Shown here one piece after another: positions 22,323 through 40,648 of a stretch of 43,425 nucleotides of DNA. Below the pieces are notes generated by a model that worked only from the letters and a program-made list of their open reading frames with translations, ran no database searches and was not told the origin of the DNA. How positions within the stretch are numbered: position 1 is the first letter of the stretch; the number at the start of each line of letters is the position of its first letter. Location: contig JASHOK010000076.1 of the NCBI GenBank assembly GCA_030041175.1, forward strand, positions 1 to 43,425. The letters are read 5' to 3'. The position numbers and the translations under genes were made by a program. The DNA comes from Thermoplasmata archaeon. Its GTDB lineage: Archaea > Thermoplasmatota > Thermoplasmata > Lutacidiplasmatales > UBA184.

Positions 22323-24026
22323 GTGCTAGTCCGCGTCGTGCCCCGGGGGACGAAAGGGGCCGCGGGAACGAGACACGCAATGACCGCTGCGATGGAGGCC
22401 GAAACGCCAAGCTTCTCGGTGAAAGCGCCTACGGTGACCGCCCCCGCGCCGGGGCTGTACGTGCGGCAGACCTCCGGTCTCGTACGGAGCGTCGGACCGC
22501 GAACGGCTCTCTTCGCAAACCTGGTCGGAATGGGCATTATCGTGAACTACTTCTGGGTCGTGTTCGCCTCTGCCGGGTATCCGAACGCCGACCTCGTCAC
22601 GACCGTCGCGATCGGGGTACTGATCAACGTCGGAGTCGGTTTTGTCTACTGGATGCTCGCGAGCTCGATGCCCCGTTCGGGCGGCGACTATGTCTTTCTA
22701 GGTCGGATCTTCCATCCCAGTATCGGCCTCGGGACCAATCTCCTGTTCACCGTGGTCTTCGTGACCTGGGCCGGCTACTTCGCCTACTATACCGCCATCT
22801 TCGGCCTCCCGACCATGTTCGCGGCGTACAGCGTGGCCGGTGGGGGCGCCACGGCCCTCTCCTGGGCGGCGACCCTCGCGAGCTCGTTGACCGACCAGCT
22901 GCTGGTCGCCGTGTTCGTCTTGCTGCTCGTGGTGCTCGTGAGCCTGCTTCCCACGAAGTGGATCTTCCGTACGGTCGTCGGCATCTTCGTACTCTCGGCG
23001 ATCATTTACGTGATCATGCTCGGGGTGCTGCTCTCGACCTCGCAGTCCGCCTTCGCGACGGACTGGAACGCGGTCAACACCGGGGTCTACAGCTACTCGG
23101 CCCTTTCCGCCAGCGTCGCCGGCACGACGAACATCACCCTGGCGGGCACCTTCCTGGGGATCGTCTACACGATGCTGAGCTTCATCGGCTACGCGAACAG
23201 CTCCTACTACGGTGGCGAGATCCGGGGCAACCCGACACGGACCCAGGGGCTCGCGATCTTCGGCGCTCCGCTGATCTTCGCGGTCCTGATCGGCGCCCTC
23301 TACGCCGCCACCTATGCCACCTTTGGCCGCAACTTCCTCATCGGTGTCAGTGATTCCTACCTGACCGGCGGCTTCTCCACGGCGGTCCCCTCGCCGCTCT
23401 TCCTGGCGGCCTATATCCTCCACGGCGACCCGATCCTCGCCGGGTTCCTCTCCTTCGGGCTGATACTGACCTTCTTCGGCTTCGCCCTGGTCTACTTCAT
23501 CGTCCCCACCCGGAATCTGTTCTCCTGGTCGTTCGACCGGATCCTGCCCGTGGCCTTTGCCAAGGTGAACCGCCACGGAGTCCCCTGGGTGGCCGTGATC
23601 GTGCTCGCCGTCGCATCCCTGATCGTGATTTACGTCGGCGTCTACACCACGCTGCTCGACTACCTGTCCTATTCGAACTTCGGCTTCTGGCTGGCCGTCG
23701 GACTCGTTTGCCTGGGCGGCGCCCTCTTCCCCTTCATCCGGCCGAAGCTGTTCCAGAGCAGCCCCCAGATCGTCCAGGCCCGGATCGGCCGGGTCCCGAT
23801 CATCACCATCGTCGGAGTCGCCAGCTGGATCTCTGCCTGGTTCGTCAGCTACGCTGCGTCGACGGCCCAGTATGTCGAGCCCTCGGGCGCGTACAGCTAC
23901 GGCTACCTGATCTTCCTCCCGATCGTCTTCGTCATCGGGGTCGTGGGCTACTGGATCTCGCGGGCCATCCAGATGTCCCGGGGACTTCCGATGGACCTCA
24001 TCAACCGGGAACTGCCCCCCGAATGA
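22323..24026 (+). CDS. APC-superfamily amino acid/polyamine permease
   Basis: About 12 TM segments; SSMPRSGGDYVFLGRI motif; GTG 22323 (TATA-like box about 22 nt upstream) or ATG 22381. Confidence 0.87.
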   Translation: MLVRVVPRGTKGAAGTRHAMTAAMEAETPSFSVKAPTVTAPAPGLYVRQTSGLVRSVGPRTALFANLVGMGIIVNYFWVVFASAGYPNADLVTTVAIGVLINVGVGFVYWMLASSMPRSGGDYVFLGRIFHPSIGLGTNLLFTVVFVTWAGYFAYYTAIFGLPTMFAAYSVAGGGATALSWAATLASSLTDQLLVAVFVLLLVVLVSLLPTKWIFRTVVGIFVLSAIIYVIMLGVLLSTSQSAFATDWNAVNTGVYSYSALSASVAGTTNITLAGTFLGIVYTMLSFIGYANSSYYGGEIRGNPTRTQGLAIFGAPLIFAVLIGALYAATYATFGRNFLIGVSDSYLTGGFSTAVPSPLFLAAYILHGDPILAGFLSFGLILTFFGFALVYFIVPTRNLFSWSFDRILPVAFAKVNRHGVPWVAVIVLAVASLIVIYVGVYTTLLDYLSYSNFGFWLAVGLVCLGGALFPFIRPKLFQSSPQIVQARIGRVPIITIVGVASWISAWFVSYAASTAQYVEPSGAYSYGYLIFLPIVFVIGVVGYWISRAIQMSRGLPMDLINRELPPE

Positions 24027-24076: not shown

Positions 24077-25108
24077 GTGGGCGATACCGTAGACGTCGTC
24101 GTCGACCCGTTCACCCAGGAGAAGCTGCCCCTCCGGCTCCCGCTCGAGTTCCAGACCGCTCCCGAGGAGTCTCGAAAGGCGCTCGGACTGGGAGACTACG
24201 TCGACCTCTCTGACCCGGTCATGGCCCGGGCCGTGGGGGTCCTCCACGGGCTGACCCAAGACCTGCCCGGGCACGACTTCGCGCTCCTCGGCGGCGTCGC
24301 TTTCCGGTTCCGCGCCCCGTCCAGCAATGCCCCTGCGACCGGGCTGCGGCGTCCGCTACACGACATCGATCTCTCCTGCCATCATGCGGACGCCAAGAAG
24401 GTCCACACCGCCCTCCTCGCGCTCGGCGGCCGTCACGGCAGTGCGCTCTCGGTCGTGGAGACCCACGCCGACCGAATGTTCAACGCCCTCATGGGCGGCC
24501 GTCGGATGCGACTCCACAACGTCACGGACGTGGCCGATGGTCGCGCCGTGCTCGGCACCATCGACCTGCTCGCCGACGAGTTCCGCTTCTGCCACAACAT
24601 GGACCTCAAGGCCGACATCAGCCAGGCACCGAAGGACGGCCACACCCTGGCGCTCTCCACCCTGATGCTGTCCAAGCTGCAGTTCATCCAGAGCATCCCA
24701 GCCGATCACAAGGACCAGGTCGCCGGTCGCGTTCTGGGGCCGTTCGGGAAACGCGAGCTTGTCATCGGGCCGGAGGACAAGGACACGAAGGACCTGCTGG
24801 CCCTACTCCTGGACCACCCCGTCGGAGAGGCGCCCGGACAGATCTCGGCGCAGCGGCTGGTGCAGCCGCTCACTTCGGACTGGGGCTTCTGGACCACGGT
24901 CCGCATGAATCTGGACCACCTGCCCAAGTCCCCGTTGTTCTCCGCCCTGCCGCCGGCCGCGCAGGCCATCGTGGGGCCGCGCATCGAGACCCTCCACGCG
25001 GCGACCGACCGGGTCCAGCCGAAGCGACGCCTCGCCTTCCTCCAGCGGGAATGGTGGGAACCCGTGGAGTCCCTCGGAACGACTCCCCCGCCGGCATCGA
25101 CCGGCTGA
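24077..25108 (+). CDS. Putative nucleotidyltransferase-like protein, divergent AbiEii/MNT-like (copy A)
   Basis: FALLGGVAFRFR...HDIDLSC (GG...DxD), GTIDLLADEF, LMLSKLQFIQ, DTKDLLALLLD; shares DWGFWxxxxxNL and N-terminal MGDxV...PF with 36212-37000. Confidence 0.55.
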   Translation: MGDTVDVVVDPFTQEKLPLRLPLEFQTAPEESRKALGLGDYVDLSDPVMARAVGVLHGLTQDLPGHDFALLGGVAFRFRAPSSNAPATGLRRPLHDIDLSCHHADAKKVHTALLALGGRHGSALSVVETHADRMFNALMGGRRMRLHNVTDVADGRAVLGTIDLLADEFRFCHNMDLKADISQAPKDGHTLALSTLMLSKLQFIQSIPADHKDQVAGRVLGPFGKRELVIGPEDKDTKDLLALLLDHPVGEAPGQISAQRLVQPLTSDWGFWTTVRMNLDHLPKSPLFSALPPAAQAIVGPRIETLHAATDRVQPKRRLAFLQREWWEPVESLGTTPPPASTG

Positions 25109-25114
25109 CCGGGC

Positions 25115-26080
25115 TCAGCCCGTCGTCAGAACGTGCGACCGGACCCGGTCGGGCTCGAGCTCGACGATCAGCCCCTGGAGGATCCCCTCGCTGTAGACGC
25201 TTCCCGGGTTGACGCACAGCGTCCGGCCGACCGAGGAGAAGCCTTTCGATTCGTGGATGTGCCCGTGCAGACCGAGCAGCGGCTGCCGTTGCTCGATGGC
25301 CTCCCGGACCGCCGAGCTCCCGACATGGACCATTTCGGGCTCGCCACCCGGTCCCATCACTTTCGTGAGGTCCGGGGTGAGTTTGGGCGCCAGGTCGAGA
25401 TGGGTGCCGAGCGGGGGAACGTGGATGTTGTAGACGACCCGGTCCGGACGCTCCACTCGCGCCGCGGCGGCCTGGATCCGCTCTCCGAGCTGGGGCTCGG
25501 TAAGCTCCCGGTTCGTGTGCCACGGGGTGATGTTGCTGTACGGAATCGTGAGCAGCTCGTGGGTATCATCGAGTCGGAGGATCCGGCCATCCGTCAGTTC
25601 GACGTAGTCGCTGCCGGCCAGCACTCCCTCCATCTCGTCGAGGTCGTCGTTGCCGAGTCCGATGAGGATCCGGATGCCCGTGCCCCGGAGACGGCTTTCG
25701 GCGAGGCCGACCCACCGCCGAAGCACGTCGAGCGCGAGCCCCCGGAACAATGCATCCGCCTTCGCTCGGTCGTCGGAGAATTCTTTCCATTCCTGCGGAG
25801 TCGTCCGGTACGGCAGACTGCCAATCGCCCGCAGGTCGTCCTCGAAGCGCTGCAGATCGGTCTCGGTCTGAACCCACCGCGGGCGGCCCAGATACAAGCC
25901 GGTCCAGCCGCCGTTGTCGGGCCAGAGCGGGGTGATCGTCTTTCCGGCGATGTCCCCTCCGATGAGAAGGACCTGCGCCTGGTAGATCTTCCCCGCATTG
26001 ACGAACTTGCGGAAACAGCGCTCCGAGCCATGCAGGTCGGAGACGTAGAAGACGCGGGTTGCTTTCGGGATGGGCGACAC
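25115..26080 (-). CDS. Calcineurin-like metallophosphoesterase (copy A)
   Basis: YVSDLHGSERCFRKF, LIGGDIAGKT, GLGNDDLDE, YNIHVPPLGTHLDLAP, LHGHIHESKG. Confidence 0.88.
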   Translation of the reverse strand: MSPIPKATRVFYVSDLHGSERCFRKFVNAGKIYQAQVLLIGGDIAGKTITPLWPDNGGWTGLYLGRPRWVQTETDLQRFEDDLRAIGSLPYRTTPQEWKEFSDDRAKADALFRGLALDVLRRWVGLAESRLRGTGIRILIGLGNDDLDEMEGVLAGSDYVELTDGRILRLDDTHELLTIPYSNITPWHTNRELTEPQLGERIQAAAARVERPDRVVYNIHVPPLGTHLDLAPKLTPDLTKVMGPGGEPEMVHVGSSAVREAIEQRQPLLGLHGHIHESKGFSSVGRTLCVNPGSVYSEGILQGLIVELEPDRVRSHVLTTG

Positions 26081-26104
26081 CGCCGCTGTCGGAAAGCGGG
26101 CCGG

Positions 26105-26112
26105 CTAAAAGG
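26105..26112 (-). promoter_or_regulatory. TATA-like box upstream of metallophosphoesterase copy A
   Basis: Minus-strand CCTTTTAG about 28 nt before GTG 26080. Confidence 0.45.
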
Positions 26113-26223
26113 ATTCGGGGGCCATCACCCGGTGTGCTCAACGGGCAGGCCCACGGACGGAGGGACCTACGCGCGCTCGGGGCCGGCGGCCTCGGACCCG
26201 GACGAAGCACGGGCACGCAAACC

Positions 26224-26229
26224 CTTTAG
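26224..26229 (+). promoter_or_regulatory. TATA-like box upstream of SRPBCC gene
   Basis: CTTTAG about 28 nt before ATG 26254. Confidence 0.4.
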
Positions 26230-26253
26230 CGCGGGTCCGGAACTGCGCCGCCG

Positions 26254-26709
26254 ATGGAGGAAGAGCTCTACCCCATCATCATCCAGGTGACGGTGCCGCT
26301 GCCCACCCACATGATCTTCCGGGCTCTCACCGAGCCGAACGGCCTTGCCGGGTGGCTCTGCGAAGCGGCGGAGGTAGATCCGAAGGTCGGCGGCCAGTAC
26401 CGGCTCCGGTTCGGGGGCGAGACCCCCTTCGAGAGCTTCGGCGCGATCACGCACTTCACGCCCGACGTGGACTTTGGCTTCGAGTGGCGGGCTCCGTCCT
26501 CCTTTGGCGCGCTCATGAACGAGCCCAGCCCGCGGACCCGGGTCTACTTCCGGCTGGCCGATTCGCCGGAAGGCATCGACATCACGCTGGAACACATCGG
26601 ATGGGGGTCCGGCGAGGATTGGGAGTCGGCCCGGTCCTGGCACTTTCACCTGTGGGACGAGCGGCTGCAGCAGCTCAAGGCGTATCTGATCAAGACCGCC
26701 TACGGCTAG
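26254..26709 (+). CDS. SRPBCC / AHSA1-like domain protein
   Basis: IIQVTVPLPTHMIFRALTEPNGLAGWLCEAAEVDPKVGGQYRLRFGG. Confidence 0.8.
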   Translation: MEEELYPIIIQVTVPLPTHMIFRALTEPNGLAGWLCEAAEVDPKVGGQYRLRFGGETPFESFGAITHFTPDVDFGFEWRAPSSFGALMNEPSPRTRVYFRLADSPEGIDITLEHIGWGSGEDWESARSWHFHLWDERLQQLKAYLIKTAYG

Positions 26710-26730
26710 CCGCGAGCCCGGACCGCACGC

Positions 26731-26910
26731 CTAGGCCGCCGGCACGTACTTCGCGCACCCCGTGGGCCCGCACTTGCTGCACGGCCCCGTCGGCGCGAGA
26801 TGGTAGCCGCCCGGCTTGCCCGGAAGGTCCGGCACGACCGTCATGTGCTGGGTGGGGAAGTGCCCGCAGGTACATCGCGCGTGACCCGCGGGAGCGGACA
26901 GTTGTCCCAC
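26731..26910 (-). CDS. Small Cys-rich (zinc-binding) protein (59 aa)
   Basis: GTG-initiated MGQLSAPAGHARCTCGHFPTQHMTVVPDLPGKPGGYHLAPTGPCSKCGPTGCAKYVPAA*; not in ORF track. Confidence 0.55.
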   Translation of the reverse strand: MGQLSAPAGHARCTCGHFPTQHMTVVPDLPGKPGGYHLAPTGPCSKCGPTGCAKYVPAA

Positions 26911-27011
26911 GGTTCTCGGTCCCCAACGCCGAGAGGGCGGACCGGGGCAAAAAACCTCGTCGATGCCACCCCGCGTCCTGCCGACGCCGGTGTCGGCGAA
27001 TCGCTAAGAGC

Positions 27012-27746
27012 TTGGTCGACAGCCCGGAACTGATGGAGGTCCTCGGCTGCCCCATCCCCGACGACTGCTGGGTGGACCTCGAGAACGGGACCTGGACCCG
27101 GGCCGGCCCGGATGGCTGGTCCGTCGGAGTCCTCGCGGTGCAGGCCGCGTTCGCCGGGCGGTATACTTCCGTACGGTTCCGCGAGGTCACTGGTCCCGTG
27201 GAGCGGGGCCGGAGTCTGGCCACGCTCGAGAGCCCCCGGTCCACGGCGCCGTTCCGCATTCCCGTCACCGCGACCGTGCTCGCCCGTAACGCCGCCGTCC
27301 CCGCACGGCCCAAGCTTCTCAACGATTCCCCGTACGACGAGGGATGGCTGGTCCGTATCCTTCCGGCCACGTCGGCCGACATCGGGCGCTACCTGCGCCG
27401 GCCGGTCGAACTCCGAGCGGAACTCGAGGCGCTGATCCGGGAACGCCGGATCCAGTGCTATCCCGCCGCTCCGGACCTCGAGATGTACGAGATCGGCTCC
27501 GAGTGTTCCGCCACGCTCGCCAAGCTGGACGAAGAGCTGGTGCACCACGCGGCGGGCGACGTCGTGCTTCTCGTCACGGATGACTCGACCAGCCCCATCG
27601 AGCTGGTCCGATGGTCGGACCGCACGGGCCATACGGTGCTTCACCACCGGGTGGAGGGAAACCTCCACCACTTCCTCCTCCGGAAGGAGGGGGCTCCGGC
27701 GCCGAAGCACCGGAGCGAGGCGACCGGAAAGCTCGAGCGCTCTTAG
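27012..27746 (+). CDS. Glycine cleavage H-protein-like (lipoyl-like) domain fused to TusA-like domain
   Basis: GPVERGRSLATLESPRSTAPFRIPVTATVLARNAA...LLNDSPYDEGWLVRILPA (GcvH pattern) then MYEIGSECSATLAKLDEELVHHAAGDVVLLVTDDSTSPIELVRWSDRTGHTVLHHRVEGNLHHFLLRK (TusA pattern). TTG 27012 or ATG 27033 start. Confidence 0.65.
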   Translation: MVDSPELMEVLGCPIPDDCWVDLENGTWTRAGPDGWSVGVLAVQAAFAGRYTSVRFREVTGPVERGRSLATLESPRSTAPFRIPVTATVLARNAAVPARPKLLNDSPYDEGWLVRILPATSADIGRYLRRPVELRAELEALIRERRIQCYPAAPDLEMYEIGSECSATLAKLDEELVHHAAGDVVLLVTDDSTSPIELVRWSDRTGHTVLHHRVEGNLHHFLLRKEGAPAPKHRSEATGKLERS

Positions 27747-28609
27747 GCCGTCTTCTCGACGGGTACGCGGACCCGGTTCCCCCACTCGGACCAGGAGCCG
27801 TCGTAATTGCGGACGTCCGGATAGCCGAGCAGATACTTCAGCACGAACCAGGAGTGGCTCGACCGCTCCCCGATCCGGCAGTAGGTGATGACCGGTTTGT
27901 CGGCGGTGACGCCCTTCGGCGTGTACAGGGCTTCGAGCTCCTCTCGGGGCTTGAACGTCCCGTCGTCCTTGACGGCCTGGGCCCAAGGGATGTTCGCCGC
28001 GCCGGGAATATGTCCGCCGCGCTGCGCGGCCTCGTTCGGATATTCGGGCGGCGCCGTGATCTCGCCCGAGAACTCCTTCGGTCCGCGGACGTCGACGAGG
28101 GCGAGCTTGCCCTTGCCGACCTCGGGCAGCTGCTGGAGCACATCGTCGAAGAAGACGCGCAGCTTCGCGTCCGGCGGCGACTTGGCGGAGTAGTTGCTGG
28201 TCTTGTGCGACGGCGCGTCTTTGGTGAGCGGGTGGTCCTCTTCGATCCACTTCTTCCGGCCGCCGTTCAGGATGCGGACATCGTTGACGTGATGGTACTT
28301 GAACACCCAGAACGCGTAGGCTGCGAACCAGTTGTTGAAGTCCCCGTAGAGCACCAGCGTCGAGTCGGGAGAGACGCCGCGGTCGCGGAACAACGACTGC
28401 AGTTGGGCGGAGTCGATGATGTCCCGCTTGACCGGGTCGTTGATGTCCTTCTTCCAGTCAAACAGGATCGCGCCAGGGATGTGTCCCGTGTGGTAGTTGG
28501 CCGCCGGGTCGTAATCGACCTCGGCCACGACCACCTTCGGGTCCTTCGCGTGTTCGGTCAGCCAGGCCGCATCGACCAGGACTTCGGGATGTGCGTACGA
28601 CTTCGCCAT
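27743..28609 (-). CDS. Two-domain rhodanese / thiosulfate sulfurtransferase
   Basis: VLVDAAWLTEHAKDPKVVVAEVDYDP...HIPGAILFDWKKDI; active site VITYCRIGERSSHSWFVLKYLLG. Confidence 0.92.
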   Translation of the reverse strand: MAKSYAHPEVLVDAAWLTEHAKDPKVVVAEVDYDPAANYHTGHIPGAILFDWKKDINDPVKRDIIDSAQLQSLFRDRGVSPDSTLVLYGDFNNWFAAYAFWVFKYHHVNDVRILNGGRKKWIEEDHPLTKDAPSHKTSNYSAKSPPDAKLRVFFDDVLQQLPEVGKGKLALVDVRGPKEFSGEITAPPEYPNEAAQRGGHIPGAANIPWAQAVKDDGTFKPREELEALYTPKGVTADKPVITYCRIGERSSHSWFVLKYLLGYPDVRNYDGSWSEWGNRVRVPVEKTA

Positions 28610-28715
28610 GGTGGGTTCTCTCTCCGGGGCTTGCCCGGCAGCCTCCTCGGCGGGCGCGGAGTAAAAGGGCCTTGGTTACCTCGCCGTAACCCGACGGCCG
28701 AAGGTCAGCGCCGGT

Positions 28716-29033
28716 TCAGTCCCGACGCCCCCGTCGGGGAAGCTCGTCGGTGGAGACCTCGATGGTCTCCGGGTCGAAGCCGAGCCGTTCGAGCTCCGCC
28801 CGGATGCGGCCCCGGTGGTCCCCCTGCAGGTAGACCTCGCCCTCCACGACCGAGCCGCCGGTGGCGAGCCGGTTCTTGAGCGTCCGCGTCGTTTCCGCGA
28901 GGTCGGTTCCCGTCGGAAACCCCGAGATCACCGTGGCCGGCTTGTTGTAGCGTCGCGGCTCCACCCGGACGCGGATCCGCGCGGTTTCTCGGTCGAGCGC
29001 CGATAGGATCTCATCGAACTCGTTGCTGCCCAT
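28716..29033 (-). CDS. SUI1-family translation initiation factor aIF1
   Basis: VRVEPRRYNKPATVISGFPTGTDLAETTRTLKNRLATGGSVVEGEVYLQGDHRGRIRAELERLGF. Confidence 0.9.
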   Translation of the reverse strand: MGSNEFDEILSALDRETARIRVRVEPRRYNKPATVISGFPTGTDLAETTRTLKNRLATGGSVVEGEVYLQGDHRGRIRAELERLGFDPETIEVSTDELPRRGRRD

Positions 29034-29224
29034 GAACGACCTAGAACTCCGGAACCGGGCACGCTCTCGACCCGCGGTCGGACAGGCCCTGCCGTCCCTG
29101 GAGGGACCCAGCGAGGACCGGAGATGGTGAGGGGGTTTGGACTCGGAGCCGCACCGGTTTCGGGAGGTCGATGCGGCGGGGGATTATATGGGCTCGCCCC
29201 GGACCGAAAGGCGGGAACTTCACC

Positions 29225-30004
29225 CTACCGCTCGCCCCACCGATAGAGACGGAGCGCGATCGCCGTTCCGGCGAGGGCCGAGACCGCCAGAACCCCGGCA
29301 TCGATCCAGGTGGAGCCAAAGCCGACGTGGACCCCCGCGGGCAGGAGCCCCACGTTCGTCTGGACGATGACCGCGGCGTAGGTCCCGGGGAGGAAGTATG
29401 CCACCGCTCGCCAGATCGGCGGAAGTAGCCAGATCGGCAGGTAGAGCGGACTCAGCATCCCGAGGGACGTGAAGAGCAGATTGCCGACCGGCCAGATCTC
29501 CCGCTGGCTCCGGAGACGGCTCGAGATCGCGATCCCGATCGCCGCAAAGAGGATCCAGAGCAGGACGATCGAGCCGGTCAGCGCGAGCCAGGCAAACCAG
29601 GGCACGTGGACCACGGACGCCAGCAGGATGCCCAGCACGACGTACGCCGGCAGCGCGCTGATCATGTTGGCCACGGCGATGCCGAAGAGATAGCCGACCT
29701 TGGTGAGCGGGGAGGCGATGAAGAGGTCCTGCAAGGACGACTCGAGTCGCCAGTAGGCCGAGTCGCCCAGCACCCAGTTCCCGATGTTCTGAGTCGTGAA
29801 CAGCATGGCGCCCACGATCTCGAGCGGGAACAGCCCCGGCGGCGAGATCAGCTTCAGGAAGAAGAGGAAGATGAACGGCAGGAGGACCGGGGCGATCGTT
29901 GCCGCCGGGTTCCGGCTGATCCAGCGCCAGCCGATCAGGGCGAAGGCCGGGAACACCCGGCCCCGGTGGGGCAGGTCGAAGGCCGGAGCCGACGCCGTCG
30001 CCAT
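29225..30004 (-). CDS. ABC-2 type permease
   Basis: About six TM segments; tandem with 30007-30777 and ABC ATPase. Confidence 0.8.
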   Translation of the reverse strand: MATASAPAFDLPHRGRVFPAFALIGWRWISRNPAATIAPVLLPFIFLFFLKLISPPGLFPLEIVGAMLFTTQNIGNWVLGDSAYWRLESSLQDLFIASPLTKVGYLFGIAVANMISALPAYVVLGILLASVVHVPWFAWLALTGSIVLLWILFAAIGIAISSRLRSQREIWPVGNLLFTSLGMLSPLYLPIWLLPPIWRAVAYFLPGTYAAVIVQTNVGLLPAGVHVGFGSTWIDAGVLAVSALAGTAIALRLYRWGER

Positions 30005-30006
30005 GC

Positions 30007-30777
30007 TCAGCGCTCCCGGGAGATGCGCCGGGCCCAGTAGACGGCCCCCACGAAAGCGAGGAGCGCGCCCCCGACGAGGCTGACGGCGGCGATCAGGATC
30101 CAGTCCAGGGGAAGCGCCAGCAGCCCCGAGGCATGCTCGACCAGCGCCGTCCCGCCGGCCGTGGGGAGGATCAGGATGATCGGCTGCAGGGCCGAGGGAA
30201 AGAGCCAGAGCGGGTAGAAGACCGGCGGCAGCACGCCGAAGAAATTGAAGAACAACGTCGAGTAGGGCCAGATGCTCCGCATGTTCCGGAACCAGGTCGA
30301 AATCATGTAGCCGACGGACGCCGTGAACACGAACTCACAGGCGAGCACGCCGAGGAAGATCAGCGCAGCCGTTCCGGAGAATCGGACGAAGTACTCTGCC
30401 GCGCCCGAGAGGACCAGGATCGGCGCGCAGTAGGCGAGCAGGATGCCGATGGACATCCCGAGAAAGTAGGCCTCGGGGGTCATCGGCGAGGCGTGGTAGA
30501 GCTCGTGCAGCTTGTGGTCGATCCGGATCCAGGCCGACTCGTTCTGGACCCGCTGACCGATCTGGAACGTTGAGAAGACCACCGCTCCGATGATCGTGTA
30601 GGGCAGGTACTGACGGGCCAGCACCGACACGAAGACCAGGAAGACCGCCTGAACGATGACCGAGACGCCGATCGACAGTACCTCGTGCAGCTGGACCCTC
30701 AGCTCGGTGCCGATGAACGCACCGAGGCCGGACCAGCGCGACCGCCGTTGGAGCGGAAATGCCGGCTCAAGATTCAT
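30007..30777 (-). CDS. ABC-2 type permease
   Basis: MNLEPAFPLQRRSRWSGLGAFIGTELRVQLHEVLS...; hydrophobic; ORF open to 30939 but start set at ATG 30777 next to the ATPase stop. Confidence 0.8.
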   Translation of the reverse strand: MNLEPAFPLQRRSRWSGLGAFIGTELRVQLHEVLSIGVSVIVQAVFLVFVSVLARQYLPYTIIGAVVFSTFQIGQRVQNESAWIRIDHKLHELYHASPMTPEAYFLGMSIGILLAYCAPILVLSGAAEYFVRFSGTAALIFLGVLACEFVFTASVGYMISTWFRNMRSIWPYSTLFFNFFGVLPPVFYPLWLFPSALQPIILILPTAGGTALVEHASGLLALPLDWILIAAVSLVGGALLAFVGAVYWARRISRER

Positions 30778-31696
30778 CGTTGATCGACCGTCCCACCACC
30801 CGCAGGAAGGCCTCCTCCAGGGTGACCGGCCCCACCGTGGCCGTGAGCTTGGAGTGCGCGGCCAGCTCCAGAATCTCCTGGATCCGCTGGGGTCCGGTGA
30901 TGACGTGCACGGTGTCGCCGTCGCGCACGAGCGGCCCAAAGGTGGCGAGCTGCGCGGTAATGCCGTCCCCCGAGACGACCGAGACGCGAAGGGTTCCGCC
31001 GACGCTCCGCTTCAGGTCGTCCGCCGTACCCTCGGCGAGTAGACGCCCCTCGTCAATGATGTAGAGCCGCTGCGACAGCGCCTCGGCCTCATCGAGATAG
31101 TGCGTGGTCAGCAGAATCGTCGAGCCTTTGCGCGTCAGCTCCCGGAAGGAGTCCCAAACTCCTCGCCGGGCAAAGGGGTCCATCCCGATGGTCGGCTCGT
31201 CGAGGAAGAGGAGCGGCGCCTCGGTGGAGATGACGGTCGCAACCATCGTCCGCTGACGCTGGCCGCCGGACAACGTGATCGACAATCGGTCCGCGACCTC
31301 AGTGAGACCCATCTGCTCCAGCGCGTGCTCGGCGCGCGCCTTGGCGGTCTCCGCAGAGAATCCCCGGGCCCGAAGGTAGGTGTAGGCCTGCTCCCGGGGC
31401 GTGAGATGCATGAACGGCTTCCCTTCCTGCGGCACGACCGCGAGGTAGGGTCGCACCGCCTCCGGATCGGCGATCGCGTCGCGTCCGAAGATCGAAACCG
31501 ACCCCGACGTAGGGGCCAGCAGGGTCGACGAGATCCGGAGGAAAGTTGTCTTTCCGGCACCATTCCGCCCGAGGAGAGCGATCCGCTCGCCTTTTGAAAT
31601 GCGCAGCGAGACCCCCGACAGGGCTTCGATGTCGGGGCTGTTCCGGCCCCGGTACACCTTGCGGACCGACTCGGCCCTCAGCGCATCGGTCTGCAT
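30767..31696 (-). CDS. ABC transporter ATP-binding protein (DrrA-like)
   Basis: LLGRNGAGKTTFLRI, LSGGQRQRTMVATV, LLFLDEPTIGMD. Confidence 0.93.
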   Translation of the reverse strand: MQTDALRAESVRKVYRGRNSPDIEALSGVSLRISKGERIALLGRNGAGKTTFLRISSTLLAPTSGSVSIFGRDAIADPEAVRPYLAVVPQEGKPFMHLTPREQAYTYLRARGFSAETAKARAEHALEQMGLTEVADRLSITLSGGQRQRTMVATVISTEAPLLFLDEPTIGMDPFARRGVWDSFRELTRKGSTILLTTHYLDEAEALSQRLYIIDEGRLLAEGTADDLKRSVGGTLRVSVVSGDGITAQLATFGPLVRDGDTVHVITGPQRIQEILELAAHSKLTATVGPVTLEEAFLRVVGRSINDES

Positions 31697-31719
31697 GGGG
31701 ACGTCTCTACTCGGGGGTT

Positions 31720-31728
31720 CTATTTCAC
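31720..31728 (-). promoter_or_regulatory. TATA-like box upstream of ABC ATPase 31696
   Basis: Plus-strand CTATTTCAC (minus GTGAAATAG) about 28 nt from ATG. Confidence 0.4.
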
Positions 31729-31878
31729 TCTGGACCGCGATCGAGCTCTCCGGGCGCCGACCCCGTGCGCTGGGAACGCGCCGGGCGCCGGCACTCTCGG
31801 GAGCCGGTGTCGCGGAACCGTGCGACCTCGAGTACGCTCCTCAGGAACGGTCAGAGGACGGAGGATGAGCGAAGGAGC

Positions 31879-32274
31879 TCAGCCGCCGCAACCGCAGCCG
31901 CCGCCGTTAGCCGAATTGCTTCCGCACGAGCCACAGCCCCCGGTGAGACCGGCTTCGTCCGGCTCCGGGAGTGTCGGGTTGGTGATCTTGAATCCCGATT
32001 CCTGCAGGGTTTCGACATAGTCGACGACCGCGCCGTCGACGAACTTTTGACTGCTGGGATCGACCAGCAGGGAGAAACCGTCGACCTTGACCACCGTGTC
32101 ATCCGCGCGCGCCTTGGAAAAGGCCATACCGAACGCCACCGCGGAGCCGCCTCCGCAGCCGCACCCGCCTCCACCCGGCTGGGCGTAGATTCGAACGCCG
32201 ACCTCTCCCTTCTGACCCTGGATCAGGCGGCGGATCTGCTCTTGGGCAGTGGTCTTGAACTCGACGGAAATCAT
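31879..32274 (-). CDS. HesB/IscA-like A-type Fe-S carrier variant with extra Cys clusters
   Basis: MISVEFKTTAQEQIRRLIQGQKGEVGVRIYAQPGGGGCGCGGGSAVAFGMAF...VDGFSLLVDPSSQKFVDGAVVDYVETLQESGFKITNP...GGCGSCGSNSANGGGCGCGG*. Confidence 0.8.
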   Translation of the reverse strand: MISVEFKTTAQEQIRRLIQGQKGEVGVRIYAQPGGGGCGCGGGSAVAFGMAFSKARADDTVVKVDGFSLLVDPSSQKFVDGAVVDYVETLQESGFKITNPTLPEPDEAGLTGGCGSCGSNSANGGGCGCGG

Positions 32275-32418
32275 GGACGACCTCGTGGTACCGTTGAGAA
32301 CGTACCCTCGGATAAGCATTCGCCCCGCCGTGAACAGGTGCTTACCTGTCGCTCATCCGGCGACGAAACCGCACCGGCGAAGATTCCGCGCAGCTGGGCC
32401 GGGCGGAAGCGAGGCACG

Positions 32419-34134
32419 CTACGTGCCAGGCCCGGCTCCACCGGCGGGCTTCGAATCGATGTCCGGGTCGGACGTCTCACGCCAGCAGATCCGGGCGAGC
32501 GCGTTCGACCACCGCGGAGGCAGCCCGATCGAGCTTGCAAAGATTCGGATGTCCTGACGGGATAGCTCCCCCACCAGAATGAGCACCGCTAGATAGACCG
32601 CGAGGGCGAGTACCCCGATCTCCAGCAGCTGGTACCAGCGGTCCACGGCGAAGAAGCTGTTGACATTCGCAAGCGCGTCCAGACGAGAAACCACCAGGAA
32701 CTCCGCGACCGCGGCCAGCGGGATCGTCCAGACGGGTCTCCAACGGAAAGGGAGGCCCATGTAACTGTACAGGAAGTAGGCGTTGAGCGCGAGGGCTGCG
32801 ATCGAGGACAACAGCGCGGCGAGCGCGATCGAACCGAGGCCCCCCAGACCCAGCACGCCCGCATGATCAGGTGCCAGAAATCCGAAGATGCACGCGAAGA
32901 GGACGATGACCTGGAGCGACGTCAGGTAGAACTCGAGACGCTGCAGTCCGATCGAATTCAGGGCGGTCCCGATGATCTGGCTCAACGTGAGCGGGATGGC
33001 GGAGATGGCGAGCAGTGCGAGGGGCGTGGCACCGCCGCCGGCATCGGGGAGCGGCCCTAGGTACGATTTCTGGAATAGGATCAGCAGCAGATTCACCCGG
33101 TAAACGACAAACAGCACCGCCCCCGGTACGACCATCATCCCGGTGTAGCGAAGCGCGCGCCAAATCCGATCCCGGAGCAGACCATGCTCCTTGCGTTCGT
33201 GCAGCCCGGCGAGATGCGGGAAGAGCGGAACTACCACTGCCGAAGGCAGCGCCAGCAGCAGAACTCGGAAGCCGTTCGCCGCGTTGAAGATCGCTACGGC
33301 GGCCGTGTCATAGAAGAATCGGGCGACCAACGGCATTCCGTTCGTAACGAGGTAGAGCAACCCCAGGCTCCCGAGCAACGGCCACGAGTAGGACAGAAGG
33401 TGGCGGAACTCAGTCCACCGGGGCGCGACGAAGTGCTTCCAGACCGTGGGCACCGCGACTGCGGACGACGCCGAGGCCCCCAGCACGTAACCGGCGGTAA
33501 GTCCCCAGATCGCGTGCGAGTTTACGGCGCCGCCGACGGTCGGGAACGTCAGCGCGACGACGACGAGCACGCTCGTCCGGACCACGGACTCCACGAGCGT
33601 AGGTACCTGGCCCCGGATCGAGTTCCCCAACCCCACGTAGAGCTGGTTGTACACCACCCCGGGGGTCCAGAGCAGAGGGAGAAGCATGAACACGGCGAGG
33701 CACAGGTAGAGGCTGGACGCGGGGACCGTGAGGCCTCCCGACATCGAAACGATACCGATGAAGGGAGCCATCGCCAGCAGGGCGATGCCGAAGAAAACCA
33801 CGAAACCGACGCGGGAAGCGAAGTAGGTCCCGGTGAACCGCTTAGCCGTCGGATCCCGGGCGAGGAAGTACACAAAGGCCGTTCCTAGCCGTAACTCGCC
33901 GAGAGTGTTGATCGACGAAGCGAGGACAAGGTTGAACTGGACGAAGCCGACCAGCGCCAGGCCGGCCCCCGGAGCTGCGATGTGCCGCGCGATGAAGAAC
34001 GAGCTGATGTAACTAACAAGCTGGGCGACAAAGCTCACGATATAGACGAAGCTCGAGCTGAGCCCCAGGGGCCTTTCGTTGGCGGGACGTTCCGGCCGGA
34101 CTGTCGCCACTGTCGCCGAAGGAGGACCGGCCAC
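32419..34134 (-). CDS. Polysaccharide/lipid flippase-like membrane protein (MOP superfamily)
   Basis: 571 aa, about 12-14 TM segments; FVYIVSFVAQLVSYISSFFIARHIAAPGAGLALVGFVQFNL. Confidence 0.75.
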   Translation of the reverse strand: MAGPPSATVATVRPERPANERPLGLSSSFVYIVSFVAQLVSYISSFFIARHIAAPGAGLALVGFVQFNLVLASSINTLGELRLGTAFVYFLARDPTAKRFTGTYFASRVGFVVFFGIALLAMAPFIGIVSMSGGLTVPASSLYLCLAVFMLLPLLWTPGVVYNQLYVGLGNSIRGQVPTLVESVVRTSVLVVVALTFPTVGGAVNSHAIWGLTAGYVLGASASSAVAVPTVWKHFVAPRWTEFRHLLSYSWPLLGSLGLLYLVTNGMPLVARFFYDTAAVAIFNAANGFRVLLLALPSAVVVPLFPHLAGLHERKEHGLLRDRIWRALRYTGMMVVPGAVLFVVYRVNLLLILFQKSYLGPLPDAGGGATPLALLAISAIPLTLSQIIGTALNSIGLQRLEFYLTSLQVIVLFACIFGFLAPDHAGVLGLGGLGSIALAALLSSIAALALNAYFLYSYMGLPFRWRPVWTIPLAAVAEFLVVSRLDALANVNSFFAVDRWYQLLEIGVLALAVYLAVLILVGELSRQDIRIFASSIGLPPRWSNALARICWRETSDPDIDSKPAGGAGPGT

Positions 34135-34163
34135 CGAAACTCACATCGCCGAGCGTGCCCCGT

Positions 34164-34173
34164 CTTATTATAC
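34164..34173. promoter_or_regulatory. TATA-like box between divergent NUDIX and flippase genes
   Basis: CTTATTATAC; about 24 nt before ATG 34192 (+) and about 35 nt before the minus-strand start 34134. Confidence 0.5.
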
Positions 34174-34191
34174 TCCCAGTCCGACCGGTCC

Positions 34192-34719
34192 ATGCCGGAC
34201 GGTGACGCTGTGAGCAGCCAGCCTCTGCCGCCGTTGCCACCGCCCCACACCCGCGTCGGAGTCGGCGGTGTCCTGATCCGGGACGGCCACGTTCTCGTCA
34301 ACCGGGCCGTGTACCGGAGCCGGTTCACCATTCCGAGCGGGTACGTCGAAAGCGGCGAGGGGCTCGAGCCGGCGCTGTCCCGCGAGGTCGAAGAGGAGAC
34401 CGGCGTGCGCGTCGGAGTCGGTCCGCTCCTGATTGCACGTCACAAGGTCGTGACGGCCCAGGAAAGCGACCTGTACCTCGCCTTCCTTCTCGAGGATCGC
34501 GGCGGAACCCCCGAAGCGCGACCGCCGGAGATCGCCGAAGTCCGACTTCCGACACTTGCGGAGGCCGACTCGGCACCCTGGATCTCGGAGCTCTCCCGGC
34601 TCGCGATCCGTCTCGCAGCCCGGCGGGTCGGCAGCTGGCCGCGGAGCCCCTGGCCCGGTGGAGAAGTACCCGGCGTGTTGTCCGAGGCCTACCACCCGGA
34701 GGGGTCCGTTCCGCCGTGA
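34192..34719 (+). CDS. NUDIX hydrolase
   Basis: GYVESGEGLEPALSREVEEETGV matches the Nudix box GX5EX7REUXEEXGU. Confidence 0.92.
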   Translation: MPDGDAVSSQPLPPLPPPHTRVGVGGVLIRDGHVLVNRAVYRSRFTIPSGYVESGEGLEPALSREVEEETGVRVGVGPLLIARHKVVTAQESDLYLAFLLEDRGGTPEARPPEIAEVRLPTLAEADSAPWISELSRLAIRLAARRVGSWPRSPWPGGEVPGVLSEAYHPEGSVPP

Positions 34720-34732
34720 CCGGGGCAGGCCC

Positions 34733-35185
34733 CTACTCACCGCCTCGCGAGGCTGGGGGCTCCTCCGGGGAGGCCCGTTCCCACAGCTCGATCCAGATGC
34801 CGTCTGGGTCGGACAGAAAGACGAGGCGTTCGTTGCCCTCCTGAAACGGAGGAATCCGAACCTTGGCGCCGAGCGACTTCAGTTTGGCGAGCGTGGCGTC
34901 GACGCTGTCCACGAGGAACCCGAGATGATCGAGTTCGTCGCCCTCGCGGAACGGCGGCGCTCCCGGGTAGTAGTTGAGCTCGAGCTGGGCCCCGCTCTCC
35001 GGGTCTTGGAGGGTCTCCCACTGTCCCCCCGCGGCCATCCGGCCGGAGCTATGAATGCGGAGACCCAGCCCCTCGCAATAGAATCGCCGGGACCGCTCCA
35101 GGTCGCGGACACGGATCCCCGTGTACTCCAGCACGGCCGCGGCGAAGAGACCCTCCACTAAAGGACTTTCCACGACAGCAGGCAT
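34733..35185 (-). CDS. Glyoxalase / VOC-family protein
   Basis: MPAVVESPLVEGLFAAAVLEYTGIRVRDLERSRRFYCEGLGLRI...DHLGFLVDSVDATLAKLKSLGAKVRIPPF...FLSDPDGIWIELWER. Confidence 0.87.
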   Translation of the reverse strand: MPAVVESPLVEGLFAAAVLEYTGIRVRDLERSRRFYCEGLGLRIHSSGRMAAGGQWETLQDPESGAQLELNYYPGAPPFREGDELDHLGFLVDSVDATLAKLKSLGAKVRIPPFQEGNERLVFLSDPDGIWIELWERASPEEPPASRGGE

Positions 35186-35221
35186 GGCGAAGCCACTGCG
35201 GTCACGGCCGCCAAGCTCCGA

Positions 35222-35229
35222 CTTATAAG
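35222..35229 (+). promoter_or_regulatory. TATA-like box upstream of metallophosphoesterase copy B
   Basis: CTTATAAG about 27 nt before GTG 35252. Confidence 0.5.
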
Positions 35230-35251
35230 CCGTCGCCGAATCTGCATCCAA

Positions 35252-36208
35252 GTGGCTCGGTTCCGCGTCTATTTTGTGAGCGACCTGCACGGGTCCGAGG
35301 TCTGTTTCCGCAAGTTCCTCAACTCGGCACCGGTCTACGCCCCGGATGTCATGATCTATGGCGGAGACATCCTGGGCAAGACACTCGTCCCGATTTTCCC
35401 GGACGACGGAGGCGGCTACCGGTGGTACCCGACCGGTCACGCCGCCCAGCACTTTCCCGCCGAGGAACTCGCCGCGGTCGAACGCCGGATCGCCGACTCG
35501 GGTCGGTACTCGCTCGTCACCCCGCCGGAGGAGTGGGCCCGGCTCCAGAAGTCCCCGGATGAGATGGAGGGGGTGTTCCAACGCCTCGCCTTGGAGCGCC
35601 TGCGTCACTGGATCGCGCTGGTTCGCGAGCGGCTCACGCCGAAGAAGATCCCGGTCGTGATGAACGTCGGCAACGACGACACCAACGAGGCTCTCGACCT
35701 GATCCGGGCCGAGGGACCGGAGAACTTCCTCGTGCCGGAGGGGCGGGTGATCCGCGTGGGGCCCTACGAGATCTTCGGGTGCGGCTACGCGAACATGACC
35801 CCGTGGCATTGTCCCCGGGACCTGGACGAGGCCGACCTCCAGAAGGAGCTCGACCGAACCCGGAGCCAGATCGGAAACCCGAAGCGTACCCTGCTGGACA
35901 TCCACGCACCACCCTTCGGCACGGCGCTGGATATGGCGCCCGAGCTGGACGCCGACTTCAAGCCCCAGGTCGTGGCCGGGAACCTGCTCATGCATCACGT
36001 CGGCTCCACCTCGGTCCGGGAACTCCTGGAGTCGGTGCATCCGGTCGCCGGCCTGTTCGGGCACATCCATGAGTCCAAGGCCGCCGACGAGGTCGCCGGC
36101 GTCCCGGTGTTCAATCCCGGCAGCGCCTACTTCAGTGGGCAGCTGCAGGGGCTGCTCGTGGACCTCGAAGAGGACCACGTCGCTTCGCATCTGTTCGTGT
36201 TGGGGTAG
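35252..36208 (+). CDS. Calcineurin-like metallophosphoesterase (copy B)
   Basis: YFVSDLHGSEVCFRKFLN, IYGGDILGKT, MNVGNDDTNE, LDIHAPPFGTALDMAP, LFGHIHESKA. Confidence 0.9.
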   Translation: MARFRVYFVSDLHGSEVCFRKFLNSAPVYAPDVMIYGGDILGKTLVPIFPDDGGGYRWYPTGHAAQHFPAEELAAVERRIADSGRYSLVTPPEEWARLQKSPDEMEGVFQRLALERLRHWIALVRERLTPKKIPVVMNVGNDDTNEALDLIRAEGPENFLVPEGRVIRVGPYEIFGCGYANMTPWHCPRDLDEADLQKELDRTRSQIGNPKRTLLDIHAPPFGTALDMAPELDADFKPQVVAGNLLMHHVGSTSVRELLESVHPVAGLFGHIHESKAADEVAGVPVFNPGSAYFSGQLQGLLVDLEEDHVASHLFVLG

Positions 36209-36211
36209 CCG

Positions 36212-37000
36212 GTGGGCGACCAGGTCCTGCTGGACGAGGCTCCCTTCATCGGCGAGGTCGAGCGCATCGTCCGACTGGCGACAGAACGGGGCATCGTGCT
36301 CCGAGCGTGTGGCTCGGTCGGCCTCTACTACCGGTTGCGACAGGATCCCGGCGCCCGGGCGGTCTACCTCCTGCGCGACGGCACCGCACGCCAGACGCCG
36401 TTGTTCAAGGACCTGGACCTTGCGAGCCAGGAGAAATTCGGCAGCAAGGTGTTCCGACTGATGGTCAGAGAGCTCGGATACACCGAGGACACGGAGACGA
36501 ACGCTCTCTTCGGCATGTACCGGAACGTCTACTTCCATCCCTCCTTCTCGATCGATGTCTTCTACGACGTGCTCCGGTTCAGCCACGAAATCCCGCTCAA
36601 GGACCGCTTCCCCGTGGGCGTGACCCTGGCCCCGGAGGACCTGATGCTGGGAAAGCTGCAGATCCACAAGACCACCCCGCGGGACCTCATGGACCTCGCC
36701 GCGGGAGCGATGGCCTTCCACGTCGCCTCCCTCGACCGGACCTACATGGCGGGCCTGCTGGGCAATGACTGGGGCTTCTGGTACGATGCCGAGCAGAACC
36801 TGCGGAAGAGCCAGGCGCTCATCGCACAGCTGCCGACGCACGGGGATCCCGCGGTGACCGAGGTTGCCTCTCGTGCGCAGCGGCATCTGCAAGAGTACCT
36901 GGACTTCCTGGCCGCGCTGCCCAAGACCCATCGCTGGGAAAAGCGGCAGGCCAAGGGCACTCGGGAACCCTGGTACGAAGAGGTCGACGAACTGCACTAG
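36212..37000 (+). CDS. Putative nucleotidyltransferase-like protein, divergent AbiEii/MNT-like (copy B)
   Basis: LRACGSVGLYYRLR...LFKDLDLAS, SIDVFYDVLRFSHEIPLKDRF, LAPEDLMLGKLQIHKTTPRDLMDLAAGA, NDWGFWYDAEQNL. Confidence 0.6.
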   Translation: MGDQVLLDEAPFIGEVERIVRLATERGIVLRACGSVGLYYRLRQDPGARAVYLLRDGTARQTPLFKDLDLASQEKFGSKVFRLMVRELGYTEDTETNALFGMYRNVYFHPSFSIDVFYDVLRFSHEIPLKDRFPVGVTLAPEDLMLGKLQIHKTTPRDLMDLAAGAMAFHVASLDRTYMAGLLGNDWGFWYDAEQNLRKSQALIAQLPTHGDPAVTEVASRAQRHLQEYLDFLAALPKTHRWEKRQAKGTREPWYEEVDELH

Positions 37001-37953
37001 GCCGGCCGAGCGGTCCGGTGCTTTGCGACGGCCGACATCACTTCGAAGAGGGCATTCGCGGCCGCGAGAGCGGTGACCTGGCCCATGTGGTCGTACTGGG
37101 GCGCCACCTCGACGACGTCGAAGCCGATGACGTTCAGCCGATGGAGCTCCCGGAGCAGGTGCTGGAGCTCCCGGGTCGTGAGTCCGCCGGGCTCGGGCGT
37201 CCCGGTGCCGGGCGCGAACGCGGGGTCGAGCACGTCGATGTCGAGAGAGACGTACACGGGACGACCGCCGACCTCGGACACGATCCGCTCCATGATCGGT
37301 CGATAGCCTTGGGCGTCCACGTCCTCGGTGGTGTACGTCCGGTGCACGATCGCGGCGTTGTTCGGGATATCCGCCGCATCGTAGAGGGGACTCCGGATCC
37401 CGACCTGGAAGACGTTGCCCGGCGTGATGAGGCCCTCCTCATACGCCCGCTTCACCCAGGTTCCGTGGGTGTAGCGCTTGGTGCCCCAGTACGCCTCCCA
37501 TGTATCGTAGTGGGCATCGAAGTGGAGCAGGCTCACCGGCTGGCCGGTCGCGGCCTTCTGGGACCGGAGGATCGGCAACGTGATCGAATGGTCGCCGCCG
37601 GCCGTGAAGGGTACGACGCCGGCCCGGAAGACCGGAGTGTAGGCTTCCTGGATGCGGGCGAAGGTGTCGTCGAGATACCCCGGGATCGGATCGACATCCC
37701 CGTAGTCGACGATATCGAGCACGCGGAACGGGTAGACCTGCGCGAACATGTTGTAGGACCGGACGAGGCGGGAGTTGTTCCGGATCGCCGACGGCCCTTC
37801 CCGACAGCCGCTTCGGAAACTCGTGGCATCATCCCACGGCACGCCGACGAATACCCCCTTGGCCGACGACAGCTCCTGCGACTGCGGCAGGCGGGCGAAG
37901 GAGGCGATCTGTGCGAAGCGGGGCGACCGGCCCAGGCCTTGAGGGTCGGTCAT
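36997..37953 (-). CDS. Ureohydrolase (agmatinase/arginase family)
   Basis: VGVPWDDATSFRSGCREGPSAIR, GGDHSITLPILRS, LHFDAHYDTWEAYWG, VSLDIDVLDPAFAPGTGTPEPGGLTTRE. Confidence 0.92.
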   Translation of the reverse strand: MTDPQGLGRSPRFAQIASFARLPQSQELSSAKGVFVGVPWDDATSFRSGCREGPSAIRNNSRLVRSYNMFAQVYPFRVLDIVDYGDVDPIPGYLDDTFARIQEAYTPVFRAGVVPFTAGGDHSITLPILRSQKAATGQPVSLLHFDAHYDTWEAYWGTKRYTHGTWVKRAYEEGLITPGNVFQVGIRSPLYDAADIPNNAAIVHRTYTTEDVDAQGYRPIMERIVSEVGGRPVYVSLDIDVLDPAFAPGTGTPEPGGLTTRELQHLLRELHRLNVIGFDVVEVAPQYDHMGQVTALAAANALFEVMSAVAKHRTARPA

Positions 37954-39841: not shown

Positions 39842-40648
39842 ATGATGCGAGTCGCGGTTGCGCAGTTTACGCCGGAGTTTCCGGGCCACGATGACAATTG
39901 GGACCGGATCCGTCAGCTCGCGGAGACGACGGACGCCGACATCGTCGTGGTGCCGGAGTTGATCTCTTGCGGGTACATGTACCGGTCCCGGAAAGAGATC
40001 CTTCCGTATGCGGATTCTCGGCGCGTGCTCCGGGACCTCGAGCCGGTCGCCCGACGCCATCACCGGCTGCTCGTCGGCGGATTCGCCGAGCGCTCGGACG
40101 GATCGCTGTACAACAGCGCCTACGTGGTCGGCCCCGAGCGCAGCTGGGTCTTCCGGAAGATCCATCTCTGGAACTACGAGCGAGAGATCTTCCAGCCGGG
40201 AGGCCGGCCGCTCGTGGTCTCATATCAGGGCCATCAAGTCGGCGTCGAAGTGTGCTACGACCTCCAGTTCCCGGAGCTGGGCACGTACTATGCCCGGCTG
40301 GGTACGGAGCTCCTGTTGATTCCCATGGCCTGGGCCGAGGAAAGGGTGTCAAATGAGTCGCCGTTGCAGCCGTACAACCATCTCGCCATCGCAACGGCGA
40401 GCTCCCACGGGATGTTCGTGGCCGTCGCGAATCGGACCGGGACCGAGCGCGGAGCCGTCTTCCCGGGGCAATCGAGCATTACGGATCCGTTTGGACGGAG
40501 CCGCCACCTGGCCTCGAAACCGGGCACACTCTCGGCCGAGCTCGATTTCTCGTTCGTCGGCAAGGCCAAGCGGCCCAACCGCCGCAACGACCTCGACGCG
40601 GACCGGCGGCTGCAGGTATCGCTGCCGCGGGTCGGTCGGAGCGCCTAG
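39842..40648 (+). CDS. Carbon-nitrogen hydrolase (nitrilase superfamily)
   Basis: Glu-Lys-Cys triad contexts VVPELISCGY, FRKIHLWNYE, VGVEVCYDLQFPELG. Confidence 0.9.
   Translation: MMRVAVAQFTPEFPGHDDNWDRIRQLAETTDADIVVVPELISCGYMYRSRKEILPYADSRRVLRDLEPVARRHHRLLVGGFAERSDGSLYNSAYVVGPERSWVFRKIHLWNYEREIFQPGGRPLVVSYQGHQVGVEVCYDLQFPELGTYYARLGTELLLIPMAWAEERVSNESPLQPYNHLAIATASSHGMFVAVANRTGTERGAVFPGQSSITDPFGRSRHLASKPGTLSAELDFSFVGKAKRPNRRNDLDADRRLQVSLPRVGRSA

Follow-up and report, generated by a model that had tools for sequence, protein, structure and literature searches.

A recurrent gene module of an APC-type permease, a metallophosphoesterase and a predicted nucleotidyltransferase in a Thermoplasmata archaeon and in other archaea and bacteria

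Introduction

In the GlnD-GlnK-AmtB system, a nucleotidyltransferase (NTase) of the Pol-beta type is linked to a transporter, the ammonium transporter under PII control. The glnD operon is found in Actinomycetes; in mycobacteria it also contains glnK and amtB, and the role of glnD in GlnK adenylylation has been studied (PMC3612183). MntA, a small Pol-beta NTase of the MNT/HEPN type, adenylylates its gene neighbour HepT, a precedent in which an enzyme of this kind modifies the product of an adjacent gene (PMC7641770). A third comparison is with the AbiEii/MenT (DUF1814) toxins and their AbiEi/MenA-type partners. Here we describe a 43,425-nucleotide (nt) stretch of DNA from an uncultured Thermoplasmata archaeon of the Lutacidiplasmatales (contig JASHOK010000076.1 of assembly GCA_030041175.1, positions 1 to 43,425), called the window below. 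It carries two loci, each of which is, judged by gene content, a three-gene unit composed of an APC-type permease, a calcineurin-like metallophosphoesterase (MPE) and an NTase. A preliminary description made from the window sequence alone had reported a duplicated two-gene module of NTase and MPE. That pair is real, but the unit is larger: an APC permease, not named there, is present at both loci.

The module differs from each of the described systems. Like GlnD-GlnK-AmtB it combines a transporter with a linked Pol-beta-type NTase, but it has neither a PII protein nor a bifunctional GlnD with an HD domain. Its transporter belongs to another family, a separate calcineurin-like phosphoesterase is present and the parts are unrelated; modification and demodification that set transport would be common to both only under the mechanism favoured below. 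The module NTases share with the AbiEii/MenT toxins a predicted Pol-beta fold and the motif order G[S/G], DxD, D, K...D, whereas their recurrent neighbours are an MPE and an APC permease rather than an AbiEi/MenA-type antitoxin, and the GS-DxD spacing is longer. The AbiEii profile (PF08843) matched neither window NTase and matched only 4 of 70 NTase family members, weakly (best E 0.0079). As in MntA/HepT, the NTase is encoded beside a partner, but the module NTases are 262-343 aa in length (MntA type <150), no HEPN protein accompanies them, and in the 70 members 20-32 residues separate the G-[S/G] pair from DxD in place of the spacing of the MNT motif, GSx10DxD. The motif order that the preliminary description had likened to AbiEii and MNT enzymes holds, but AbiEii membership is not supported and the MNT spacing is not kept. 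The aminoglycoside nucleotidyltransferase ANT(2'')-Ia is ~12% identical with a low template modelling (TM) score, and nothing marks the module NTase as a resistance gene.

Results

Gene content of the two loci

Locus 1 consists of permease 1 (530 aa, 22434..24026, forward strand), NTase1 (343 aa, 24077..25108, forward strand), which starts 50 nt after the end of the permease gene, and MPE1 (321 aa, 25115..26080, reverse strand), which is convergent with NTase1 across a gap of 6 nt (25109-25114). Permease 1 matches AA_permease_2 (PF13520) with E 1.8e-20 and 73.7 bits (cut-off 27). The NTase1 open reading frame (ORF) encodes a divergent member of the module NTase family (family profile E 5.5e-56) with the triad residues conserved in the alignment, and the MPE1 ORF encodes a GNDD-motif protein with intact metal-ligand motifs. 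In locus 2 the ORFs of MPE2 (318 aa, 35252..36208) and NTase2 (262 aa, 36212..37000), both on the forward strand, lie in tandem with a gap of 3 nt (36209-36211). MPE2 scored 22.6 bits with Pfam Metallophos, barely above the cut-off, and NTase2 was recovered by the family profile with E 2.8e-75. Permease 2 (539 aa, 37973..39592, reverse strand) is set apart from NTase2 by an agmatinase-family gene and was assigned by the module-permease alignment and profile (4.5e-143). The four NTase and MPE ORFs, their coordinates and the two gaps are as first described. The same genome contains two further MPE loci, C14 and C40, each beside a permease of the same subfamily; no NTase was found near either of them.

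Co-occurrence and co-inheritance of the three genes

Co-occurrence was surveyed in 61 genomes, the window's own and relatives, counting strong matches for the MPE and matches with E <= 1e-40 for the permease subfamily. Permease subfamily, MPE and NTase were each confined to the same 11 genomes (G000-G005, G031, G033, G047, G054 and G058), the remaining 50 having none of the three. Moreover, the counts of permeases and of full MPEs were equal in each of the 11 genomes (4, 5, 4, 2, 5, 3, 1, 2, 1, 2 and 1). Were the genomes independent, the chance of such an agreement would be 1 in C(61,11) = 4.2e11, but they are not, because most of the survey genomes are related to that of the window. Of 145 genomes sampled at random from the phylum, only the window's own contained the NTase; the MPE was found there and, as a weak partial match, in one other. 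This patchy distribution suggests horizontal transfer.

Genome contigs were then scanned with an NTase profile made from a narrower alignment subset, as the fuller alignment was too diverse, and 80 NTase loci were kept. The archaeal loci come from Thermoplasmata, Nitrososphaerota, Bathyarchaeota, Thorarchaeota, Njordarchaeota/Asgard, Theionarchaea and Desulfurococcales, and the bacterial loci from Actinomycetota, Chloroflexota, Caldisericota and Spirochaetota. Adjacency was counted on the 35 loci having at least 6 kb of flanking sequence on each side. An MPE lay within 6 kb in all 35 (within 250 bp in 26) and a permease within 6 kb in 32. The NTase and MPE genes were arranged as MPE-NTase at 43 loci, NTase-MPE at 13, divergently at 13 and convergently at 9; as all four orientations occur, gene-order inertia is not the cause of the adjacency. 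When flanking genes were clustered, the three module families were by far the most frequent. The pairing reported in the preliminary description, which had staked its reading on adjacency of homologues beyond chance, is thus not a chance arrangement.

To control for the species tree, partner labels were permuted within genomes using 17 loci of 8 genomes that carry several modules. The distance correlations were r 0.95 for NTase-MPE, 0.92 for NTase-APC and 0.95 for MPE-APC against a permuted mean of ~0.14, and the observed values were reached in 2, 2 and 0 of 1999 permutations, respectively. The three module genes segregate together within genomes and stay close in any gene order.

The genes are also found in named species. 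The cultured Halobellus limi carries a metallophosphoesterase, a hypothetical protein (the NTase) and an APC permease on a plasmid, and Thermomicrobium roseum has an APC permease and a metallophosphoesterase together with a nitrilase, with no annotated NTase relative adjoining. Note that the T. roseum plasmid (L301, 10332-11067) has an annotated nucleotidyltransferase-domain plus HEPN gene pair close to its permease-MPE-nitrilase locus. Several variant loci were also seen. The same genus has a third module lineage (L081, L082, L083 and L084), with an NTase ~35% identical to NTase2, of which the window's genome gave no example. In a Njordarchaeum (L120, 7557-8294 and 9106-9831) and on an Asgard-group contig (L166, 6-479 and 1890-2618), a single MPE is accompanied by two adjacent NTase ORFs. 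In three Thaumarchaeota loci (L143, L152 and L162) NTase and MPE occur together, with no nearby permease, in a conserved neighbourhood of housekeeping-looking genes.

The nucleotidyltransferases

NTase1 and NTase2 are remote homologues (25% identity over 183 aa, BLASTP E 4e-07) and both are recovered by the family profile, which agrees with the earlier view that they are divergent members of one family. The AlphaFold2 model of NTase2, built with 70 homologues, has a predicted local distance difference test score (pLDDT) of 93.5 and a predicted TM-score (pTM) of 0.91. Its nearest solved folds are MenT1 of Mycobacterium tuberculosis (top, E 1.6e-3), ANT(2'')-Ia (second) and TM1012; the probabilities of the PDB matches are 0.97-1.00, but E is >= 1.6e-3 and TM-scores are ~0.3-0.56. 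The fold is predicted to be that of a Pol-beta nucleotidyltransferase, the other point on which the preliminary description had staked its reading. The four motifs G[S/G], DxD, D and K...D occur in this order with essentially invariant residues. In 95 aligned rows, G34 is present in 94, D67 and D69 of DxD in all 95, and D115 in 90, the other five having Glu; K148, D158, D161 and H125 are invariant. An N-terminus shared by the two proteins, MGD.V...PF, had also been proposed. This looks coincidental, as orthologues of the same genus start with VADTV, VDEVV, VVDQV or VPDTV and NTase1 carries ~36 extra N-terminal residues.

No Pfam family scored above its cut-off for the window NTases. Among the 70 family members there were weak matches to NTP_transf_5 (PF14907) in 25 (best 4e-05) and to DUF6036 (PF19502) in 2 (best 5.2e-06), two families that are themselves uncharacterized. 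NTase sequence profiles gave nothing credible against the PDB, and viral predicted structures yielded no matches with E <= 0.001. None of the four MPE and NTase proteins of the window had a convincing counterpart in the PADLOC defence library, the MPEs giving partial PDC-S10 matches only.

The phosphoesterases

MPE1 and MPE2 align over their whole length, as had been noted, with 39% identity in 323 columns (E 5e-78). The MPE2 model (pLDDT 95.4) is calcineurin-like with aq_1956, TT1561, Mre11/SbcD and MPPED2 as nearest folds. The ligand set expected of a calcineurin-like metallophosphoesterase (D-x-H, GD, GN, H, GHxH) is complete: D11, H13, D39, H271 and H273 are present in 76 of 77 rows, the remaining row being a gap, and N141 and H218 in all 77. 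N141, D142 and D143 are found in 77 of 77 rows and G140 in 76, so that GNDD replaces the usual GNH(D/E) and the catalytic His after GN is missing. Thus, although fold and metal ligands are common to the MPEs and the calcineurin-like phosphoesterases (Rv0805/Icc, aq_1956, TT1561, Mre11/SbcD and MPPED2), the MPEs form a subfamily of their own, with TPW and HxPP motifs and a GNDD lacking the usual His. No nuclease partner was seen beside the module MPEs. The best sequence match among solved structures was the cyclic-nucleotide phosphodiesterase Rv0805 (E 1.1e-5, ~100 residues covered). Judged by the residues conserved in both families, NTase and MPE look catalytically competent. MPE relatives were sought in phages and none were found.

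In the MPE tree, some forks of which are poorly supported, the window loci fall in separate, well-supported clades with other families and phyla in between. The closest row to locus 1 is from Nitrososphaerales, whereas locus 2 groups most closely with other Thermoplasmata rows. The two loci are therefore old paralogous modules, and the tree rules out a recent tandem duplication; they are duplicated, as first described, only in this deep sense.

The permease subfamily

The bodies of the module permeases are only ~20-26% identical to permease 2, yet their end motifs are kept: (F/Y)xRxx(S/T)GLVR at the N-terminus and G(I/V)(D/x)...E(I/L)PP(E) at the C-terminus. Permease 1 has YVRQTSGLVR and a tail ending in RELPPE, and permease 2 has FARKTSGLVK and FKELPPD. 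The E(I/L)PP(E) tail is present in 57 of 59 distinct permease tails. A PF13520 search of the window's own genome gave one permease besides the module ones (C7), which is without the subfamily tail. Among the PF13520 permeases of module-bearing genomes, an MPE lay within 5 kb of 10 of 18 tail-bearing proteins and of 1 of 15 tailless proteins. The single tailless case (L266/L128) is a chimeric ORF joined over a gap in the scaffold, and when it is excluded MPEs are found only near tail-bearing permeases. As 10 of 18 tail-bearing permeases have an MPE nearby, the tail marks the permease subfamily rather than the module only. Note that the chimera (L266, 4348-5928; L128, 7270-8850) has the appearance of a permease-methyltransferase fusion but spans a run of N.

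The residue at the (S/T) position of the N-terminal motif is Ser in 63 of 71 NTase-linked permeases and Thr in all 15 permeases without an NTase. This Ser/Thr is a candidate acceptor for nucleotidylation, which we regard as a weak lead.

Discussion

Comparison across genomes gives the module, its co-inheritance and the conserved active sites. As its three members are kept together in scattered archaea and bacteria, the unit probably works as one system, perhaps one that gives on/off control of uptake. Our tentative proposal, which we hold to be quite possible but short of an even chance, is that each locus is a functional module of a permease and a linked, probably regulatory, pair of nucleotidyl-transfer and hydrolysis enzymes that switches the permease. 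We infer that the NTase would transfer a nucleoside monophosphate (NMP) from a nucleoside triphosphate to a protein of the unit, either the cytosolic ends of the permease or the MPE itself, and that the MPE would take off the NMP or a related phosphodiester. The pair would thereby turn the permease, whose substrate may be an amino acid or an amine, on and off with nutritional state. Such a scheme would follow the principle of GlnD-GlnK-AmtB, its closest functional parallel. MPE and permease would form the core and the NTase an added layer, since none was found near two of the window genome's four MPE loci. Because the catabolic neighbours change between loci and MPE and NTase do not, we favour a target shared by all loci, the permease itself or the partner enzyme, over the substrate. 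In its most specific form, in which the NTase and the His-less (GNDD) MPE reversibly nucleotidylate the APC permease or each other and so provide archaea and bacteria with a covalent switch that dispenses with PII, the proposal is rather doubtful.

Several observations weigh against such a switch. The association of Ser/Thr with the NTase is not significant when controlled for the tree, there being too few independent pairs, and the T. roseum permease, which is outside the sample, has Ser with no NTase annotated nearby. The C-terminal tail has no invariant acceptor side chain. Three of the 35 well-flanked NTase loci (L124, L143 and L162) lack a nearby permease. The MPE is also found without the NTase and hence needs a substrate of its own, and the folds nearest the NTase include small-molecule (ANT) and tRNA (MenT) transferases.

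The ANT match, ranked second among the fold matches, fits instead a scheme in which the imported amino acid or amine is nucleotidylated by the NTase, which would trap or detoxify it, and the adduct is hydrolyzed by the MPE. The agmatinase, nitrilase, aminotransferase and racemase genes around various loci and the permease-MPE-nitrilase composition of the MPE-only T. roseum locus are in keeping with substrate processing. However, these catabolic neighbours change by locus, whereas MPE and NTase do not, MPEs occur without the NTase, and the TM-scores to ANT are low (TMt ~0.5), so that we consider this scheme unlikely, if still a serious contender. The NTase superfamily includes messenger synthases, and the MPE has Rv0805 as its best solved-structure sequence match; a synthase-phosphodiesterase pair could therefore be envisaged in which a nucleotide signal made by the NTase gates the permease and is destroyed by the MPE. 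That arrangement seems improbable, as the Rv0805 match is limited to ~100 residues, the MPE reads GNDD where Rv0805 reads GNHDD and so lacks the His after GN, MPE-only loci would be left without a synthase and no recurrent effector except the permease was found.

The preliminary description had suggested a toxin-antitoxin-like or RNA-end-processing unit, in which the NTase would add nucleotides to tRNA or other RNA and the MPE would counteract it. MenT1 is indeed the top fold match and a few NTase family members weakly match AbiEii or DUF6036. Nevertheless this idea is poorly supported and we judge it very unlikely: no antitoxin-like partner recurs; what does recur as a third gene is an amino-acid permease, amid variable amino-acid or amine catabolism genes. 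The co-inheritance with a permease subfamily, the presence of as many as five permease-MPE pairs in one genome, the failure of the NTases to match PADLOC and the departure from GSx10DxD spacing argue in the same direction. Finally, an adjacency inherited passively with no functional link is scarcely credible. Although the relatedness of most survey genomes to that of the window would favor it, every NTase locus with adequate flanks has an MPE near, the adjacency extends across archaeal and bacterial phyla in all four orientations and the three genes segregate together within genomes.

A literature search within a limited collection turned up no account of this combination of genes, nor anything on the two Pfam NTase families closest to the module enzymes. 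The parts have known folds, the NTase family is uncharacterized and, as far as we found, the combination is undescribed. Through the module, two uncharacterized enzyme families become linked to a transporter across many archaeal and several bacterial phyla, and direct tests of function come within reach for a widespread family of "hypothetical" NTases. APC-type permeases would gain a dedicated regulatory or processing pair; should the covalent-switch proposal be correct, amino-acid permeases would have a covalent switch of their own with no need of a PII protein.

Neighbouring genes

The catabolic genes near the module differ by locus (agmatinase, carbon-nitrogen hydrolase, S-Me-THD, Asp/Glu racemase, class-III aminotransferase), whereas MPE and NTase are constant. 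No antitoxin family and no HEPN family was found among the profiled flanking genes. At locus 2 of the window the agmatinase/ureohydrolase-family gene between NTase2 and permease 2 (36997..37953, reverse strand) scored 212.6 bits with the TIGR01230 agmatinase model (cut-off 174.3), and a gene of this family also adjoins the module in G047 and G058 loci. A nitrilase-family carbon-nitrogen hydrolase (39842..40648, forward strand) matched nitrilase/AguB-type models of NCBIfam weakly, in no case reaching the cut-off; its homologue at L112 is a PF00795 protein. Both genes are lineage-specific neighbours and the agmatinase-family gene lies outside the module core.

Other genes of the window include an ORF (27033-27746, forward strand) that joins a glycine-cleavage H-protein-like domain to a TusA sulfur-carrier domain and is convergent with a two-domain rhodanese (27743-28609, reverse strand); the two look like a lipoyl/sulfur-transfer pair. 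A NUDIX hydrolase (34210-34719, forward strand) is followed by a glyoxalase-family gene located between it and the MPE2 locus, and occupies the same place in some members of the genus. The ORF at 41274-42335 (reverse strand) has several FTESGLP-type repeats and no Pfam match and is probably a surface protein.

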